Both the position numbers and the translations under genes were made by a program. The notes under the pieces were generated by a model that worked only from the letters and a program-made list of their open reading frames with translations, had not been told where the DNA came from and did not search any database. A stretch of DNA of 48,454 bases from a virus. Shown piece after piece: positions 3,130 through 48,454 of this stretch. Location of the stretch: IMG/VR virus record IMGVR_UViG_3300021976_000025, positions 1-48,454 of that record, one strand, 5' to 3'. Positions within the stretch are counted from its first letter, which is position 1; each line of letters begins with the position of its first letter.

Positions 3130-4371
3130 TTACTGCAAGGTTTGGGAGGTTTGTTCGACTCCCGTTGCGACGATATTGATAGTGCCGGCTTCGTTGACTA
3201 TGCGGATGAAGCCGGCGCGGACTAGCGAATCGATCGCTTCCGAAAACTCTTTCCACGACATTAAGCGGTAGCATTCCTGCCAAAGTTCTTGGTGGAGAAC
3301 GCGCTTATTTGCGCGAATATAAGACATGAGGACTTCCATATCGCGAGCGGCCTGGTGCATTCCGATTGAACGGAATACAATATGCATGTCACGCTCAACG
3401 CCGGACATTATCTCTAGCGCCATGCGCAAGTGTTCAGCTGTGATCGTGCGGGTGGAGGATTCCGAAGCGGAAAGCACCATTGCTAGTTTATGAATGTGAG
3501 TTTGTTTGCGGGCTACATAGCCTTGCAAGCGATCCGCTTTCAGATGATCTTCCAGATTCTGCCAGTGCTGCGCGTACCATTCAGTTCCGTACTTGATAGC
3601 TTCAGGAGTGATGATAAATTCTCCTGTCATAGCGGCGATATCTTCCAGATCATGGACGAGAGATTTCTCGAGTTCACTGTGCTCGTCGGAGTTTACGATA
3701 TCCTGGATATAAGGGATCAGATATTTTTTCTGGTCTGCATAGACGAATATAATACGCGAAGTCAACCCGCCTCCGATCATTGACTCTGGAAAATTCTCAT
3801 TAAGCCACGATGGAGTCGTTGCTCCAATAATGTTGATCCATGGATTCTCAACGGCTGTGTTTTCACTAGAGCGTAACCAACGTTCCCATTTGCCGTCGCG
3901 CCCATCCCACATATCGATAAGAACGGACATGAGAGTGGGGTCTCTAGGATCGAGCATGGTACCGAGTTCGCTAATCTCGCATGTAATAGCTGACATCGCA
4001 ATATATGACTTTGACATGACATCGAGAGGATCGCTTCCTTGAATGGGGACTAGACGCAGAGCGTCTTGCAAACCGCCAGTAAGCCCCTGCCAGGTGAGCG
4101 ACTGCGGCCCCATTACGATTCCATCGACTTGTTTTAGTAAGTTCATGCCGACGGACATGGTGGTGGATTTGGTTGCTACACCTGGAGGAGCTACAAACAC
4201 GATATAGAAATTGGGAGTCCATTTAAAACGGATTTGGTCTATCCAGACTCGGCGACGTAGCGCACCGGCAATTGTCGATACCCCGCTCCAGAAATTGAAT
4301 GTTTCTGGGGCTTCCGATACTTCGGTGTATTTGGCATAGGACGCCAGCCAGTTACTTAGCCGCCGAGTCAT
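3130..4371 (-). CDS. DUF3987-like ATPase, possible replicative helicase
   Basis: The 413-residue protein resembles phage DUF3987 proteins. A Walker-A-like loop APPGVATKST lies at residues 61-70, but the glycine normally preceding Lys is replaced by Thr. An acidic ISELG segment follows at ~130, then the family-like stretch around DMWDGRDGKWER and SRIIFVY at ~150-210. The C-terminal ~100 residues look like a winged helix (EFSEAIDSLVRAGFIRI). Relatives lie in phage replication modules and are thought to be primase/helicase-type ATPases. It is the last gene of the leftward operon. The start ATG at 4371 has no strong ribosome site. The family is fairly secure; helicase activity is inferred. Confidence 0.65.
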   Translation of the reverse strand: MTRRLSNWLASYAKYTEVSEAPETFNFWSGVSTIAGALRRRVWIDQIRFKWTPNFYIVFVAPPGVATKSTTMSVGMNLLKQVDGIVMGPQSLTWQGLTGGLQDALRLVPIQGSDPLDVMSKSYIAMSAITCEISELGTMLDPRDPTLMSVLIDMWDGRDGKWERWLRSSENTAVENPWINIIGATTPSWLNENFPESMIGGGLTSRIIFVYADQKKYLIPYIQDIVNSDEHSELEKSLVHDLEDIAAMTGEFIITPEAIKYGTEWYAQHWQNLEDHLKADRLQGYVARKQTHIHKLAMVLSASESSTRTITAEHLRMALEIMSGVERDMHIVFRSIGMHQAARDMEVLMSYIRANKRVLHQELWQECYRLMSWKEFSEAIDSLVRAGFIRIVNEAGTINIVATGVEQTSQTLQ

Positions 4372-4411: not shown

Positions 4412-4831
4412 TTAGATGCTGCGAGGAGAAACTGCGCCGCTGTTGGTAGAAGCTCCCACTTTCATACTGTCGACAAGAGCGGTAAGATCTTTGTCGAGTT
4501 GAGAGTGGTCAACAGTCGATCTTGTTGATTTTGACTGAGTAGTAGCTATACCGCCCGCTTGTTTTCCCGACATTTCAAGTTTATCGGCGATCGAACTGAG
4601 AAGATCGTGCGTGCGGTTCAAGGATTCGTCAGTACGAGATTGAATATTGATTAAGGCCATGAAGTAAGGAAGCTCGGCGATAGGAGCATCAGGTAGCCTA
4701 GTAGCCCGATCAGTTTTTTGCTCCGGTTGCGGGCCGAAAAGAAAATCATGGATACGAGTCAGATGGTCTTGTATAATTTCTGCGCTTTCATGCAGAGTTC
4801 TTGCGCGCTTGAGAGATTCAACAGTAGACAT
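4412..4831 (-). CDS. Hypothetical protein, element-controlled
   Basis: This 139-residue protein has no recognised family. Residues 1-40 and 55-90 look helical and amphipathic, and the C-terminal 45 residues are Ser/Thr-rich and probably flexible. It stands between the DNA polymerase and the DUF3987 ATPase in the replication operon, so an accessory replication role is possible. The ribosome site CGGAG lies about eight bases before ATG. Two copies of the 14-bp CGACACAC element sit directly upstream, in the space between this gene and the polymerase stop codon, suggesting it has its own control point inside the operon. Confidence 0.6.
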   Translation of the reverse strand: MSTVESLKRARTLHESAEIIQDHLTRIHDFLFGPQPEQKTDRATRLPDAPIAELPYFMALINIQSRTDESLNRTHDLLSSIADKLEMSGKQAGGIATTQSKSTRSTVDHSQLDKDLTALVDSMKVGASTNSGAVSPRSI

Positions 4832-15831: not shown

Positions 15832-16143
15832 TTATTTCTCCTTGTTCTGTTTCAAAATAGCGAGTTGGTGTTCGAGAAGAGTAATGAAATCGCTGTCGCC
15901 GTTTGTGACGAAACTGGCAGCAGCATCGATTTCATGGAATGGATAGCAGATAAGCACGAAACCGATTTCGCGATAGTCTCCGCGAAGATCGCCATTCATG
16001 GCTTCATCAAGCCCGCGAGCGATAGACTGGAAAGCCTGATATTGAGCTTTCATGATCTCGACCGCATCGTCGGCGGCTTGGTTGAGCATGTGCTCGGCGC
16101 CCGTTTTGCGAATATTAAGAATAGTTGTTTTCTTCTCATCCAC
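15832..16143 (-). CDS. Hypothetical protein with GTG start
   Basis: A 103-residue protein (MDEKKTTILNIRKTGAEHM...) with a helical N-terminal half and a strand-rich centre (YREIGFVLICYPFHEI). The start is a GTG with GGAGG about eleven bases upstream, overlapping the end of the ribbon-helix-helix gene by eight bases, so translation is probably coupled. No family recognised. Confidence 0.6.
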   Translation of the reverse strand: MDEKKTTILNIRKTGAEHMLNQAADDAVEIMKAQYQAFQSIARGLDEAMNGDLRGDYREIGFVLICYPFHEIDAAASFVTNGDSDFITLLEHQLAILKQNKEK

Positions 16144-16345
16144 GGGATTTCTTGCCTCCGGCTCCGGTGATTTTGATTTTATCGAGGTGTTCTTTGAGCG
16201 CGGTGTTGACGATATCGCTCAACACACCGTATTGAGGTTTTCCCCGCGCAGGATCGAAGTAATGGATTTGCAATTCAGTTAGCAAATCCTCTTTGATGTA
16301 GAGATTGATGCGTTTGCGAGCATCGCCATGTGCGCGTCTTCCCAT
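16136..16345 (-). CDS. Ribbon-helix-helix (CopG/Arc-like) DNA-binding protein
   Basis: The start ATG at 16345 has AAGGA nine bases upstream; the frame is open further up but without a start signal. The 69-residue protein begins MGRRAHGDARKRINLYI, a basic beta strand typical of the ribbon, then two helices (KEDLLTELQIHYF and YGVLSDIVNTALKEHL) and a basic tail. This is the size and pattern of Arc, Mnt and CopG repressors, which bind as dimers of dimers to tandem operators. Three copies of the CGACACA element lie 50-107 bases upstream at 21 and 23 bp spacing, making it the best candidate in this genome for the protein that binds that element. It may repress its own operon. Confidence 0.7.
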   Translation of the reverse strand: MGRRAHGDARKRINLYIKEDLLTELQIHYFDPARGKPQYGVLSDIVNTALKEHLDKIKITGAGGKKSRG

Positions 16346-16394
16346 GAAGCTAATTCCTTTAGTGGAAGTTGGACGGAGAAACGAGACACCATAC

Positions 16395-16452
16395 CGACAC
16401 AATTTATCCGCCCAACGACACATTTTAAACCACGCAGACGACACAATGCAAG
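16395..16452 (+). repeat. Three tandem CGACACA elements upstream of the ribbon-helix-helix gene
   Basis: CGACACAATTTATC at 16395, CGACACATTTTAAA at 16416 and CGACACAATGCAAG at 16439, all read on the plus strand, which is antisense to the surrounding leftward operon. Starts are 21 and 23 bp apart. The stretch 16346-16488 holds no other gene. Tandem arrays in front of a small DNA-binding protein gene are typical of autoregulation. Confidence 0.7.
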
Positions 16453-16488
16453 CTTTATCGTGCAGGGTGGTTTATCTCTCCCGATGCG

Positions 16489-16973: not shown

Positions 16974-17234
16974 TTACGCGATAATGCCAAGTGCCCGCGC
17001 AGCATATTCTGCGCAGAGACCTTTCTTTTGAAAGAGCTTATAATCTGCAAGAAGCTCTTCTGGAATCACCCAGCCTCGACGAAACTCTGCCGCGACTTTA
17101 GGTGTACGAGTAACGCCCATCTTGTGGGCTGTTACTTTAACAGATGCAACAGAGCAGTTAAGCTCCGCTGCGATTTGCTTCAACGGAATGTTGTTAGCGT
17201 AGCCGTCGAAGATTATTTTCCGCCGCTCGTTCAT
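16974..17234 (-). CDS. Helix-turn-helix protein
   Basis: An 86-residue protein whose first 45 residues read NERRKIIFDGYANNIPLKQIAAELNCS then SVKVTAHKMGVTR. The segment LKQIAAELNCSVASVKVTAHKMG is a clear helix-turn-helix of the sigma-4/transposase-like kind. The rest is basic. It may regulate early phage genes. The ribosome site is weak (AAGAAAG about ten bases upstream). Neighbours are small unknown genes. Confidence 0.65.
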   Translation of the reverse strand: MNERRKIIFDGYANNIPLKQIAAELNCSVASVKVTAHKMGVTRTPKVAAEFRRGWVIPEELLADYKLFQKKGLCAEYAARALGIIA

Positions 17235-24924: not shown

Positions 24925-25554
24925 ATGGCTAAGAACACACAGACTGTCGGCAACATGTCGGCAACTGCTATCGCCGCAACTGCGACTCCTGCCGCCGACG
25001 ACAAGAAGCGCAATGCTTCCAAGTCGCTTTATGTCGACAGCAAGGGCGAAACAACCCGGAGCCCGACAGCGGAGACTGAAATCGTTCGTTTCGTTTTCGA
25101 CGGTTTCGAGAACAGCCCGGTTGATCTCGTGATCGCTGATATCAGCGCTGCGATTTCTCATCTGGCAGTTTGCCAAGGGCTGAACATCAAGCTTCAGCGG
25201 TCTTACAACACCGCGAAGGGCAATGCCGCGCAGATGCGCGACGAATGCGAGGCGACTCGCGACAATCTCCTGAACGACGTCTGGACAAGCGAACGCGAAG
25301 GCGGCTTGCGTATCGGCGATCTTGCCGACGCAATCAAGGCGACACTTACCGACGAAGGCGAGTCCGTCGATGACGAACGCTTTGCCCGCATCAAGGAAAC
25401 GTTGAAGGACGAGTCCAAGCGCGACAAGGCAAAGGCGAGCCCGAAGGTGCAAGCGCACTTGACTCGCATCATGGCCGAAAAGGCAGCTGAACGCGCGAAG
25501 GTCGCGGGCGAAGCTGCCAGCAAGACGACTGAAAGCGGCTTGACGGACTTCTAA
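24925..25554 (+). CDS. Early rightward gene, hypothetical, highly expressed type
   Basis: A 209-residue protein with GAGGA nine bases before ATG, its own promoter region and a clear terminator behind it: a single-gene transcript. The N-terminal 30 residues are Ala/Thr-rich, the middle has EIVRFVFDGFENSPVDLVIADISAAI, and residues ~85-200 are charged and helical. Codon choice differs from its neighbours: it strongly favours AAG, GAC, GGC and CGC, as in highly expressed or host-like genes. No family recognised. Isolation as a monocistronic unit, plus codon use, suggests an abundant early protein or a recently acquired gene. Confidence 0.75.
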   Translation: MAKNTQTVGNMSATAIAATATPAADDKKRNASKSLYVDSKGETTRSPTAETEIVRFVFDGFENSPVDLVIADISAAISHLAVCQGLNIKLQRSYNTAKGNAAQMRDECEATRDNLLNDVWTSEREGGLRIGDLADAIKATLTDEGESVDDERFARIKETLKDESKRDKAKASPKVQAHLTRIMAEKAAERAKVAGEAASKTTESGLTDF

Positions 25555-25779: not shown

Positions 25780-26295
25780 TCAATCTTTTTTCATACCTCG
25801 CTTGAATATCTCCATCGCGTTTGGCGTTGGATCATGCGGCATTGACCCCAGACCGCTAGTCGGTAGCTTAGATGACTCTGGCACGTCAGGCGCGCGATAG
25901 CTTGCCATTGCCGCGCTTTCCTCTTTCTGGCTTTGTAACGTCCCTTGACTTGCCTCTTCAGCTAAAGCCGCATTGATCATGCTCGCAAAGCCTTGCGCTT
26001 TGGGTTGTACAATCAAAGTACAAGGTTCAAACATTCCCGCTTCCCGCTTCTCTTTAAAGTCTTTTGCATTGAACGCGATAGGCAAGCCATCTTTGTCAAC
26101 TATTCGCACCTCGATTTCTCTTTCAGCTTTAATTCCTGCCAAGTCTATCTTGTTAGTCTTTTCTGTTTTGAGAATTTGTGTTCTTTCGCCATAGATTTGT
26201 TGCCGGAGCCTTATCGCCTCTTTCAATGAAGCGAACGGGAATTCTCTAGGTTTGCTTGCCGCCGCGATAATCAAGTCTCGTAATACTTTCGCCAT
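25780..26295 (-). CDS. Hypothetical protein divergent from terminase operon
   Basis: A 171-residue protein, MAKVLRDLIIAAASKPREF at the start, a helical segment with RLRQQIYGERTQIL, then strands (REIEVRIVDKDGLPIAF) and a Ser/Pro-rich tail. It is the only leftward gene in this part. Its leader matches that of the terminase gene on the other strand: a CGACACACTTTATC element, then AGGAGAAACTCCCATGGC. So it is probably switched together with the late operon. No family recognised. Confidence 0.65.
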   Translation of the reverse strand: MAKVLRDLIIAAASKPREFPFASLKEAIRLRQQIYGERTQILKTEKTNKIDLAGIKAEREIEVRIVDKDGLPIAFNAKDFKEKREAGMFEPCTLIVQPKAQGFASMINAALAEEASQGTLQSQKEESAAMASYRAPDVPESSKLPTSGLGSMPHDPTPNAMEIFKRGMKKD

Positions 26296-26309
26296 GGGAG
26301 TTTCTCCTG

Positions 26310-26323
26310 GATAAAGTGTGTCG
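26310..26323 (-). repeat. CGACACAC element upstream of the leftward gene
   Basis: CGACACACTTTATC read on the minus strand, ending about five bases before the AGGAG ribosome site of the gene starting at 26295. It is identical to the copy at 26997 in front of the terminase small-subunit gene. Confidence 0.75.
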
Positions 26324-26366
26324 TTTACTTGGTTAGTCTAGCGTGATCTAGGTTAGATCGCAATGG

Positions 26367-26710
26367 GTCTAGTGTTTGACTAGCATTCTCTAGCGTTCTC
26401 TAGTTTATCTAGAAAGTGAAGCTATGGCCCTATTGCTTTTGGATTTTCTCCTGACCCTATGTGTTGATTGCTTTTCTGGTTAGTGTTTGCGAGTATTGTA
26501 TATTTGTATTTCAGTAGTTAGGAAAAAAAAAAAAACAAAAGAGAACGAACCAAGTACGACACAATGTATTATCGTCTACTCCCATTAAATACATATGCTC
26601 AACAGTATAGCTGAAAGGTAATTTAGCTTTGGGTCAGGAGGTTTTGCGGAACCAATAGGGCCGTCAACGTCAAATCTAGATAAACTAGAGATTGCTAGAA
26701 AACACTAGAC
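26367..26710. repeat. Large phased inverted repeat around an AT-rich core (divergent control region or origin)
   Basis: The left arm (26457 down to 26367, minus strand) and right arm (26631-26710, plus strand) share four blocks in order: GGGTCAGGAG, CAATAGGGCC, a 16-17 bp TCTAGATAAACTAGAG(A) block, and AAACACTAGAC. The first three start at 0, +22 and +44 in both arms exactly; the fourth is 11 bp further out on the left. The 173-base core is AT-rich, with a run of 13 As (26523-26535) and one CGACACA element (26557-26570). No gene is seen from 26296 to 27043. Phased blocks at two helical turns suggest cooperative protein binding at divergent promoters or an origin. Confidence 0.75.
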
Positions 26711-26956
26711 TAAGTATAGACGTGTTCGGCTGAACCCTAGACTAATGGGCCTGGCTGATAGTATGGGCCTGACTATACATGCTCTATGCTTGCCTCGGGA
26801 GCAGCGTGCTCGCATGGGAGTAGGTACCCAGCGCCACCCCCAGGCGGACGGCGGGAAACGCCCACGTACTACCTTTCGGAAAACCTATGCAGTTAGCTGG
26901 AACGACACACTTAATCCGCCGAAGGCGCAACCTTCCAGTGATCCATGCATTATATA

Positions 26957-26985
26957 TTGACTAGCAGATGCAATGCTCGTAAGAT
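26957..26985 (+). promoter_or_regulatory. Candidate sigma-70 promoter of the late operon
   Basis: TTGACT (26957-26962), 17-base spacer, TAAGAT (26980-26985). The -35 box matches five of six consensus bases and the -10 box four of six. Transcription would begin near 26992, just upstream of the tandem element pair, so a protein bound there could act as a roadblock or repressor. Confidence 0.55.
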
Positions 26986-26996
26986 CGACGGCAAGA

Positions 26997-27033
26997 CGAC
27001 ACACTTTATCGTTGGAAGTCGACACACTTAAAG
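26997..27033 (+). repeat. Tandem pair of CGACACAC elements before terminase gene
   Basis: CGACACACTTTATC at 26997-27010 and CGACACACTTAAAG at 27020-27033, starts 23 bp apart, ending ten bases before the ATG. A further single copy, CGACACACTTAATC, is at 26903-26916. Confidence 0.75.
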
Positions 27034-27043
27034 AGAAAACTCC

Positions 27044-27823
27044 ATGGCGCAGAGCGATCAGATTCAAAGCGTGAAAGCTTGGCATGAAGAGCTGATGGAT
27101 TTTATGCTCGCGCAGCCACGTGCGGGGTTGAAAGAGACCTCGGAGTACTTCGGGGTTAGCATGTCGTGGTTGAGTGTCGTTAAGAACTCCGATGCGTTTA
27201 AGGACGCCTGGGAGAAGCGAAGAGAGAATCATTCGAGTGCTGTCAGTGTCAGCCTCGTGCAGAGAGTGGAGGCGTTGGCGGAAGTCGCGCTGGAGACAAT
27301 GACGCAGAAGTTGGAACGGGAAGGCGAGTCGATCGGCCTCAGCACCCTGCGCGAGGTGAGCGAAACTGCGCTGCGGTCGCTGGGGTTCGGAATGCGGGAG
27401 TCGCCGCGTGCGGGGCAGAACGCTCAGACCATCACGAACAACAACATGATCGTTGTGGATCGTGAGACTCTCGCTCGTGCGCGGGATGCTCGTGCGCGTA
27501 TGCAACTCGGTGAGCATACTACGCCCAGTTCCTCACTCGAATCCGCTACGATTGAGCAGACCGCGCTCTTGGGTGGACTTCGGGACCGCGAAGACCGCGA
27601 CGCTTCGCGGGAAATTCCGTCGAGTGAGGTATCGCCCTCCGAGAATCAGTCAGTTCGCCATGAGCTTGACCTCTCGGAGGGCGAGATTCTCGCAAAATCT
27701 CCTGATCCTCCGCGGAAAATTCAGGTGATAGACAATATTCCGCCGAAAAGGTTCGGAAATCCGGCGGATCAGACGGTGCTCGAGCTTTTTAGTGACGCTA
27801 TGAAAGGAAAAGTGACTCGATGA
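27044..27823 (+). CDS. terS: Terminase small subunit (putative)
   Basis: A 259-residue protein starting the late operon two genes before the large terminase. Residues ~20-60 form a helix-turn-helix (GLKETSEYFGVSMSWLSVV, then NSDAFKDAWEKRREN), as in small-subunit DNA-recognition domains. Residues ~70-115 are a helical oligomerisation-type segment (VQRVEALAEVALETMTQKL). The C-terminal half is Ser/Pro/Glu-rich and probably disordered. It would select phage DNA for packaging. The assignment rests on the HTH, the size and the position, so it is good but not certain. Confidence 0.72.
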   Translation: MAQSDQIQSVKAWHEELMDFMLAQPRAGLKETSEYFGVSMSWLSVVKNSDAFKDAWEKRRENHSSAVSVSLVQRVEALAEVALETMTQKLEREGESIGLSTLREVSETALRSLGFGMRESPRAGQNAQTITNNNMIVVDRETLARARDARARMQLGEHTTPSSSLESATIEQTALLGGLRDREDRDASREIPSSEVSPSENQSVRHELDLSEGEILAKSPDPPRKIQVIDNIPPKRFGNPADQTVLELFSDAMKGKVTR

Positions 27824-46872: not shown

Positions 46873-48357
46873 ATGGCTGGATTATTTGATTTTTTTAATC
46901 TCACGGACTTGGCCACGCGGATGGCCGAGGCGAACATTCATCCCGAAGCGATTACGCAGGCGATCACGAGTAATTCGCCACGGATCGGGGATTTGGCGCA
47001 ACCGGGAGGAGTGCTTGAGCCTCCTAGTCAAGCGGGAAGGAATCGTGATCTGAAAAACATCGATAACACGATGCAGGGGTTTTTTGAGAATCTTCGCAAT
47101 GGTACTGGACCGTTCGAGCCTCCGAGTGTAGGAGGGCTCAAGCGAGATTTCGATGCCGGAAACAACGGTATGATGAGCATCATGCACGCGTTGACTGGCG
47201 GAATGGGGCAAGAGCCGATTCAAGGCACTCCGCCTCAAGCTGGAACGTCTATGGCTCCGCCTGTTGCGCCTCCAGTTCCGCCAGCAGATTTGTCTTCGCT
47301 TATGACGGGTGCGGCACGGCCGGGAGTCCCAGGAAGTAACGGTAACGGACTCCCGGTTGGAATGCCGAGGCCTGAAGGTCCGGTGCTGGCGATGCCAGGA
47401 GTGCCTCAAGCGCCAGTGCCTCCAGGACCGTTACAGATGCCGACTGAGAACGTCCCGATTATGGCGCCGAGTACAGTTGCACAGCCGCTTATCGAAAGCG
47501 GTATGGCTCAACCAATGCAGCCAAATCGGCCAGGAATTGAGCGTCCAGAGAGTGCTACGAGTCCGCATATGAATGCAGATGCGACAGGAGTTAAGAACAC
47601 TGTTATGCAGACATTCTATGCTGGTGGTGTTACGAATCCATTTGGGTTAGCGGCGTTGGCTAGTACCGGAAAGCACGAGAGCGGATTTTCTCCGAAGAAT
47701 TTAGCTCGAAGCTGGTCTGATCCTAGCGAAAGCGGTCAGCAAGGCACTAGCGGTGGGCTGTTCTCGTTTAGAAACGAACGGCTCAAGGCTTTGCGCGATT
47801 TTGCCGCTGCTAATGGTGAAGAAGGTAACGGCTCCCCAGCTACGCAAGCGAAGTTCTTCATGCAGGAAGACCCGCAGTTGATTCAGAAACTGAACTCGGC
47901 AAAAAGTGTTGAGGAAGCACAATCGTTGCTCAATCAGAATATTGCTTTCGCTGGGTATAATCGTGAAGGCGGCGAAGCGGGACGGAGATTGCAGACGGCG
48001 AGAGTCGAATTGCCAGGTATGGAAGCTATGGTCGGTGCTCCGCCGAGTCCTGTCACAGAGACAACAACGCCTGCGGCGGATGCGGGAGCGCCTCCGGTTG
48101 CTGGCGCTGCGCCTGGGACGACAGTGACTCCTCCGAAGAGCTTTGCGGATCGCTTGGGCGAACTCGGCAAATCGATCAAAGCCCCGCCGCCGAATGATAA
48201 TCTCAAGCCGCCAAGTGGAACGGCACCGTTGCCGCAACCAGGAAGCTTGACGCCGAATCCTGCTACAATGCAGATGATTCTCAGCATGATTGGTGGAACT
48301 GGTGGAAGTGTTCCGCAAGTGGCGCCGACGTTGGCACAATTATTGGGAGGCAAATAA
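46873..48357 (+). CDS. Virion-associated lysozyme with long disordered regions
   Basis: A 494-residue protein. The N-terminal ~240 residues are mostly Pro/Gly/Met-rich after a short helical start. Residues ~245-385 form a phage tail lysozyme-like domain: GGVTNPFGLAALASTGKHESGF with Glu near 269, then a GTSGGLFSFRNERLKALRDFA segment and NQNIAFAGYNREGGEAG. The C-terminal 110 residues are Pro/Gly-rich again. It should locally open peptidoglycan during DNA entry. AGGAGC lies eight bases before ATG. Its stop overlaps the start of the next gene (TAATG), which continues across the window end. Confidence 0.78.
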   Translation: MAGLFDFFNLTDLATRMAEANIHPEAITQAITSNSPRIGDLAQPGGVLEPPSQAGRNRDLKNIDNTMQGFFENLRNGTGPFEPPSVGGLKRDFDAGNNGMMSIMHALTGGMGQEPIQGTPPQAGTSMAPPVAPPVPPADLSSLMTGAARPGVPGSNGNGLPVGMPRPEGPVLAMPGVPQAPVPPGPLQMPTENVPIMAPSTVAQPLIESGMAQPMQPNRPGIERPESATSPHMNADATGVKNTVMQTFYAGGVTNPFGLAALASTGKHESGFSPKNLARSWSDPSESGQQGTSGGLFSFRNERLKALRDFAAANGEEGNGSPATQAKFFMQEDPQLIQKLNSAKSVEEAQSLLNQNIAFAGYNREGGEAGRRLQTARVELPGMEAMVGAPPSPVTETTTPAADAGAPPVAGAAPGTTVTPPKSFADRLGELGKSIKAPPPNDNLKPPSGTAPLPQPGSLTPNPATMQMILSMIGGTGGSVPQVAPTLAQLLGGK

Positions 48358-48454
48358 TGGCTTTCAATTCACCCAGACTCGGAAGCTTGATGGACCCGCT
48401 CGGGAAGATTATGGAACCGAATGGTGCGCCTGCGCTCGGTCAGACAATGAATCC
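48357..48454 (+). CDS. Start of the ejection-protein gene (partial, second copy)
   Basis: An open frame from ATG 48357 to the window edge, MAFNSPRLGSLMDPLGKIME followed by PNGAPALGQTMN. It is the same protein start as the gene at base 1, differing by one residue (Ala for Ser). Shows what the true first codons of that gene are. Coupled to the lysozyme stop by TAATG. Confidence 0.8.
   Translation, partial: MAFNSPRLGSLMDPLGKIMEPNGAPALGQTMN
48359..48454. repeat. Imperfect terminal direct repeat with bases 1-96
   Basis: Bases 48359-48454 align without gaps to 1-96 with 12 differences (84/96). Nine are silent third-position changes, and the other three fall in one codon (AGT versus GCG, Ser to Ala). 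Either a circular genome assembled from two strains, or two diverged copies of one gene. Confidence 0.9.

Follow-up and report, generated by a model that had tools for sequence, protein, structure and literature searches.

Mirrored, helically phased box arrays at an early/late gene junction of an uncultivated virus, a probable landing site for a protein that starts packaging or replication

What is the purpose of a pair of long inverted arms, set around an AT-rich core at the point where the early and late genes of a virus part? The question is raised by positions 26296-27043 of the uncultivated virus record IMGVR_UViG_3300021976_000025, the whole of which (48,454 base pairs, bp) was analysed and is here called the window. 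Protein scans of the window find a T7-type large terminase, an SU10-type portal, a UDG/PolA polymerase and a DUF3987 primase; the late genes run rightward from 27044, and the replication and small early genes run leftward. The initial annotation regarded the region as a phased inverted repeat that could be a divergent late switch, an origin of replication or a packaging site. Judged from its sequence, the region is probably where a phage protein docks to begin packaging or replication.

The two arms are imperfect and lie at about 26331-26457 and 26631-26745, on either side of the core. Ungapped, the arm pair is 67 nucleotides (nt) long at 72%, the two members being 261 nt apart; the gapped arm-to-arm score is 75, against a highest value of 32 among 500 dinucleotide shuffles, and the runner-up inverted repeat in the genome reaches 30.5, which makes these arms the strongest. 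Counted from the inner ends (26457 and 26631), three shared blocks stand at 0, 22 and 44 bp, exactly where the initial annotation had placed them: CTCCTGACCC (26448/26631), GGCCCTATTG (26426/26653) and TCTAGA (26408-26413/26675-26680). Its AT-rich core with a run of 13 As was found too, the run being at 26523-26535. The parts of the structure are as follows.

26338-26412, minus strand: left phased array, with CTAG at 26338, 26348, 26369, 26380, 26390, 26400 and 26409
26426-26435, minus strand: inner block GGCCCTATTG of the left arm, 22 bp from the inner end
26448-26457, minus strand: innermost block CTCCTGACCC of the left arm
26458-26630: AT-rich core between the arms, 31% GC, with the mirror centre at 26544
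26631-26640, plus strand: innermost block GGGTCAGGAG of the right arm
26653-26662, plus strand: inner block CAATAGGGCC of the right arm
26676-26740, plus strand: right phased array, with CTAG at 26676, 26685, 26695, 26705 and 26737

The phasing of the CTAG boxes is a feature that the initial annotation did not contain. In the outer arms a tandem unit, CTAGA[T/G]AANN, reads outward, and CTAG recurs with a period of 10.27 bp (phasing p about 1.5e-4 on the left and 0.007 on the right). All five of the right-hand boxes mirror left-hand boxes about 26544, and the exact mirror has p = 0.008 with the phasing already granted. CTAG occurs 102 times in the whole genome against 188 expected; 12 of these copies are in the arms, as are eight of the nine CTAG pairs spaced 9-11 bp apart genome-wide. 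With CTAG masked the arms are still alike, scoring 44.5 against a shuffle maximum of 30.5. The claim that a fourth block is displaced by 11 bp was not supported: at 70 bp the unshifted identity is 13/20 and the shifted 12/20, so the displacement is unneeded, and at 80 bp the unshifted alignment is only slightly worse (10 versus 13). Matches appear at both offsets because the array is periodic.

Close relatives of the window are few, and the CTAG arrays are absent from the readable part of L007, L009, L024 and L027; no DNA similarity to the arms was found among named phages. Scans for the phased pattern, filtered for a non-coding, CTAG-poor context, left two informative records (L031/G001 and L084/G012), most CTAG pattern matches being discarded as 9-bp coding repeats or as belonging to CTAG-rich genomes; the pattern scan was biased to CTAG, so that other spellings are under-sampled. 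The records compared are metagenomic, save a few, and some early/late junctions were assigned from the layout of open reading frames (ORFs). L031/G001, whose capsid protein is 27% identical to that of the window, has CTAGATAANN boxes around an AT-rich core (11% GC). L084/G012 has TTTCTAG and CTAGAAA boxes where its leftward late genes meet its rightward early ones, with a core of 41% GC within a 59% GC genome. A terminase relative of L084/G012, the archaeal Methanomicrobiales virus vir526 (BK063670), has arms of 69 nt that are 77% complementary and 260 nt apart; its TGCA boxes stand at 393, 404, 413 and 422 and at 742, 751, 760 and 771, and every pair is mirrored about 583.5. The junctions of L027, L015 and L010 also carry long inverted arms, in different spelling; they score 76, 55 and 46.5, the null maxima being 36.0, 36.5 and 31.5.

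In a comparison of ten genomes, eight have their top inverted repeat at the early/late junction or close to it. This repeat is strong in the window, vir526, G012 and G001; that of ctMlz233 is strong, yet stands about 1.7 kb into the early side, those of TR020, Mel-JY34 and VS-ABTNL-3 are marginal (40-44), and A-4L and Pf-WMP3 were negative. Control phage DNA, 311 kb in all, yields one repeat scoring at least 45 (0.14 per 45 kb). When the arms of seven loci are pooled, the CTAG loci included, self-similarity peaks at lags of 10 (z 5.4) and 9 (z 4.2); it is also seen at lags 19-21, 29 and 31, and is negative at 13, 16 and 26. Absence of the blocks from related phages had been named as the finding that would refute the initial interpretation: the sequence is indeed absent from them, but the layout is kept with other letters. 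By sequence comparison, then, distant relatives keep the layout at or near the junction, and the spelling of the boxes changes. That the arms match each other, differ from those of relatives and keep a helical register is the trace expected of a co-evolving binding protein.

Tandem 10-bp repeats of other kinds were also met. In two related phages, CTAGACAAAA repeats occupy a noncoding gap in five copies (L129, 3773-3816) and four copies (L075, 8488-8525), with no mirrored partner. An AT-rich noncoding stretch of L076 (2522-2678) has CTAGAAAATA 10-bp repeats close to early genes, Sak4-like ones among them.

Which protein might bind such a site? We infer that the spacing, tandem orientation and symmetry best fit two small-terminase rings on a pac-like site, with a replication origin as a close rival. 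The region would be a paired protein-binding site made of two outward-facing tandem arrays of boxes of about 10 bp, with a single box on each turn of the helix. Each array would be wrapped by a small-terminase ring whose helix-turn-helix domains follow one another at intervals of about a helical turn; the two rings would bracket the core, and the large terminase would make the first cut of the concatemer there. Ring subunits that all face one way would prefer tandem 10-bp boxes, and two rings around a cut site would prefer mirrored arrays, so that the layout seen is the one predicted. The identity of the binder, the binding of two rings and the cutting in the core are each steps that we propose by this reasoning; that the region is a packaging initiation site bound by such rings is a tentative reading, somewhat likelier to fail than to stand. 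Two features beside the arms bear on it.

26823-26890, plus strand: C-rich block beginning GGTACCCAGCGCCACCCCC, upstream of the small-terminase gene, with a clear likeness in L007 (GGTACCC.GC.CCACCCCC) and loose ones in L009, L010 and L024
27044-27823, plus strand: gene for a small-terminase-like protein, the proposed binder of the arrays

Small-terminase rings carry helix-turn-helix motifs about one turn of DNA apart (PMC4737164), and the cut site of SPP1 is flanked, at pacL and pacR, by two oligomers of small terminase (PMC4856287). The window resembles the SPP1 pac site (pacL/pacC/pacR) in having two putative binding regions that bracket a proposed cut region beside the small-terminase gene (PMC4856287), and in the wrapping proposed for it, in which each helical turn would meet about one helix-turn-helix (PMC4856287, PMC4737164). 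It differs in that its arms mirror each other and carry regular 10-bp boxes, and in that cutting is, in the window, a proposal. The order of domains in small terminases (DNA-binding domain, long helices, beta hairpin) is that modelled for the product of 27044-27823 (PMC4856287), which is predicted to have a helix-turn-helix (helices 11-47), long helices (50-112) and a beta hairpin (127-138), followed by disorder. Its three-helix DNA-binding domain has a predicted local distance difference test (pLDDT) score of 74-84, the model being built on an alignment of five rows; a fold search with it placed 2ao9 phage-protein chains at the top, weakly (E 0.4). The gene starts 303 bp beyond the final right CTAG box, so that the arrays adjoin it, as is looked for in a pac site; in some relatives the distance is larger. 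The pac site of P1 has two clusters of short palindromic TGATCA boxes, which are Dam-methylated, around its cut region. The window arms are like it in having two clusters of short palindromic boxes, but the box is another one, and the comparison is of layout only. Among the functions first proposed, a packaging site gives the best fit to a 10-bp tandem, mirrored, core-flanking layout beside a small-terminase gene, read with the published ring models.

Some points weigh against packaging. Several relatives have arms that are separated from the terminase genes by about 1.5-4 kb or lie within the early operon (ctMlz233, Mel-JY34). The model of the small terminase is of low confidence overall (mean pLDDT 58). 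Finally, the conserved C-rich block, possibly a component of a packaging or leader signal, is nearer the gene and could be an alternative cut or recognition site.

Fixed genome ends were considered and rejected: the contigs of relatives do tend to end in a zone 1-2.5 kb upstream of the small-terminase gene, but it is at poly-A/T tracts that they break off. Long noncoding tracts of this kind break the assemblies of L010, L015, L024/L025, L027 and L028 at the junction, and the records of three relatives overlap their own ends by 60-140 bp, being probably complete circular maps classed as linear. The relatives' contig ends are thus assembly breaks on circular maps, and the circular overlaps argue against cohesive ends. 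In the window itself, ORFs continue past both termini (48290-48454 and 1-1516), and a large virion protein gene is probably split by the contig break.

Alternatively, a phage initiator might bind the outward-facing arrays as iterons, open the AT-rich core and load two replication machines head to head. A candidate initiator is the DUF3987 protein.

3130-4371: DUF3987 primase/helicase

Iteron origins, such as the half-arrays of E. coli oriC and the decamers of phage P4 ori1/crr, have tandem short boxes in oppositely oriented halves with AT-rich DNA. The window has such boxes and an AT-rich segment, and paired iterons around an AT-rich core recur at the early/late junction in G001 and G012. A PolA/UDG-type polymerase and a DUF3987-type primase are common to the window, G012 and vir526 (at low identity between the window and G012), and the layout is found with bacterial and archaeal hosts. 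Unlike the known iteron origins, the window shows no recognised initiator or box family and no skew signature: third-position GC skew keeps its sign at the arms (+0.219 on the late side and +0.159 on the early side, on one strand), and the skew pattern is inconsistent over the ten genomes, where no consistent switch of the bidirectional kind appeared. No PolA-type polymerase was found in G001, which carries arrays. The layout and core thus speak for the origin that had been suggested, the lack of a consistent skew signal against it, and we rate an origin as possible but rather unlikely.

A divergent switch, in which a regulator acting on the arms and on a separate element, E, would control a leftward gene and the terminase operon, was proposed on the ground that the leaders outside the arms are alike. 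The features concerned are these.

24925-25554, plus strand: 209-aa gene with homologues in relatives
25780-26295, minus strand: lone leftward gene, 171 aa
26310-26324, minus strand: E element in the leader of gene 25780-26295
26335-26363, minus strand: candidate leftward promoter TTGCGA-17-TAGACT, weak (8/12), overlapping the outer CTAG boxes, 9 bp upstream of an E motif
26556-26570, plus strand: degenerate E element within the core
26902-26916, plus strand: E element, present in L007 too
26957-26985, plus strand: candidate terminase promoter TTGACT-17-TAAGAT (9/12), 9 bp upstream of an E motif
26996-27010 and 27019-27033, plus strand: two E elements 23 bp apart in the terminase leader

The leaders are indeed alike: ACGACACACTTTATC, the E element, is identical at 26310-26324 and 26996-27010 and is followed by GGAGAAACTCCCATGGC or GAGAAAACTCCATGGC, and on each side a sigma70-like -35/-10 pair with 17-bp spacing stands 9 bp upstream of a ACGACACA element. 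Left CTAG boxes overlap the weak leftward promoter, and other operon starts carry E elements too. The terminase promoter, however, is 217 bp outside the right arm, and the leftward gene stands alone and is not conserved, no relatives of it having been found. The rightward gene at 24925-25554, which sits within a seemingly leftward block, has homologues in the interval that separates the small-terminase gene of L027 from the early genes, and in the corresponding places of G004 and G005; it is a genuine gene, which leaves 25780-26295 alone, and the arms are thus not at the head of the early operon. The idea that a whole control unit was duplicated in inverted orientation fares likewise, the leaders and promoter-to-E spacing agreeing with it and the position of the terminase promoter and the single leftward gene disagreeing. 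The layout also persists with different neighbouring genes and extends to an archaeal virus, the host of which has promoters of another kind, and the E elements alone could explain the regulation. A divergent late switch is thus weakly supported, and we think it distinctly unlikely.

The E element accounts for the similarity of the leaders and is to be treated separately from the arms; a phage regulator probably uses it as an operator. The element lies just downstream of both promoters and at other operon starts, further copies being near starts at 4831 (minus), 45610 and 24522 (minus) and upstream of a ribbon-helix-helix-like gene (16345, minus). Six matches with at most two mismatches were found, and none for the reversed pattern; the E-element profile was seeded with the copies from this search. 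Copies are frequently paired or tripled at 21-23 bp, and no E-element pair was found in other viruses. The start-associated sequences of cluster K mycobacteriophages are reportedly repeats just upstream of several start codons, a position that the E element shares; its sequence is another one, often in tandem at 21-23 bp, and the arms are not concerned. The ribbon-helix-helix-like protein (69 aa, 16139-16345, minus) has homologues in Mel-JY34, G009, G006 and G007, and the three E elements 21-23 bp apart upstream of its gene (16393-16453) suggest that it may be an autoregulated master regulator. An 86-aa helix-turn-helix protein (16974-17234, minus), with weak similarity to sigma-70 region 4, is another possible transcription regulator.

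It might also be supposed that the arrays are a centromere-like partition site on which a filament of ribbon-helix-helix protein would assemble, in the manner of ParR on parC, whose 10-bp repeats can be split (PMC5016525). The window shares with this split centromere two clusters of 10-bp repeats flanking a spacer (PMC5016525), and a ribbon-helix-helix-like gene adjoins the G001 array (11631-11843 of L031), as another is present in the window. The orientation is nevertheless mirrored rather than purely direct, no partition ATPase or motor gene was noticed among the proteins scanned (a part of the genes), and there is no sign of a plasmid stage. Relatives that lack CTAG arrays (Mel-JY34, G009) have homologues of the ribbon-helix-helix protein too, for which reason this protein was rejected as the CTAG binder, and upstream of the window's copy there are E elements and not CTAG boxes. 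A partition site is very unlikely.

A structured RNA or cruciform hairpin is hardly credible, in spite of a single-strand fold energy of z = -6.1 for 26300-26800, since the arm mismatches are mostly transversions (14/23) with no excess of wobble pairs, so that a paired hairpin is not the expected source of the arm similarity, and there is no Rfam match and the arms are 87 bp or more apart. Folding of the GC-rich block was no better than that of shuffles. An N4-like virion polymerase with hairpin promoters (GGAGAAACTCC) was rejected too, ORFs longer than 877 aa being absent from the window.

Should small terminase prove to bind the arrays, the wrapping model would gain direct support at the sequence level from the tandem 10-bp boxes, and box spelling and helix-turn-helix would form matched pairs for studying how packaging specificity evolves. 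Packaging and origin sites do not keep their letters, which makes them hard to find in metagenomic viruses; a rule of layout (mirrored arms, a 10-bp phase, the early/late junction) locates them without sequence similarity. We give an even chance to the broader view that the arrays represent an undescribed and widespread class of cis-element in podovirus-like viruses of bacteria and archaea, in which mirrored, helically phased arrays at the early/late junction would keep a fixed layout, while their virus-specific spelling would be matched between the arms, having co-evolved with a single viral binding protein that initiates packaging or replication.
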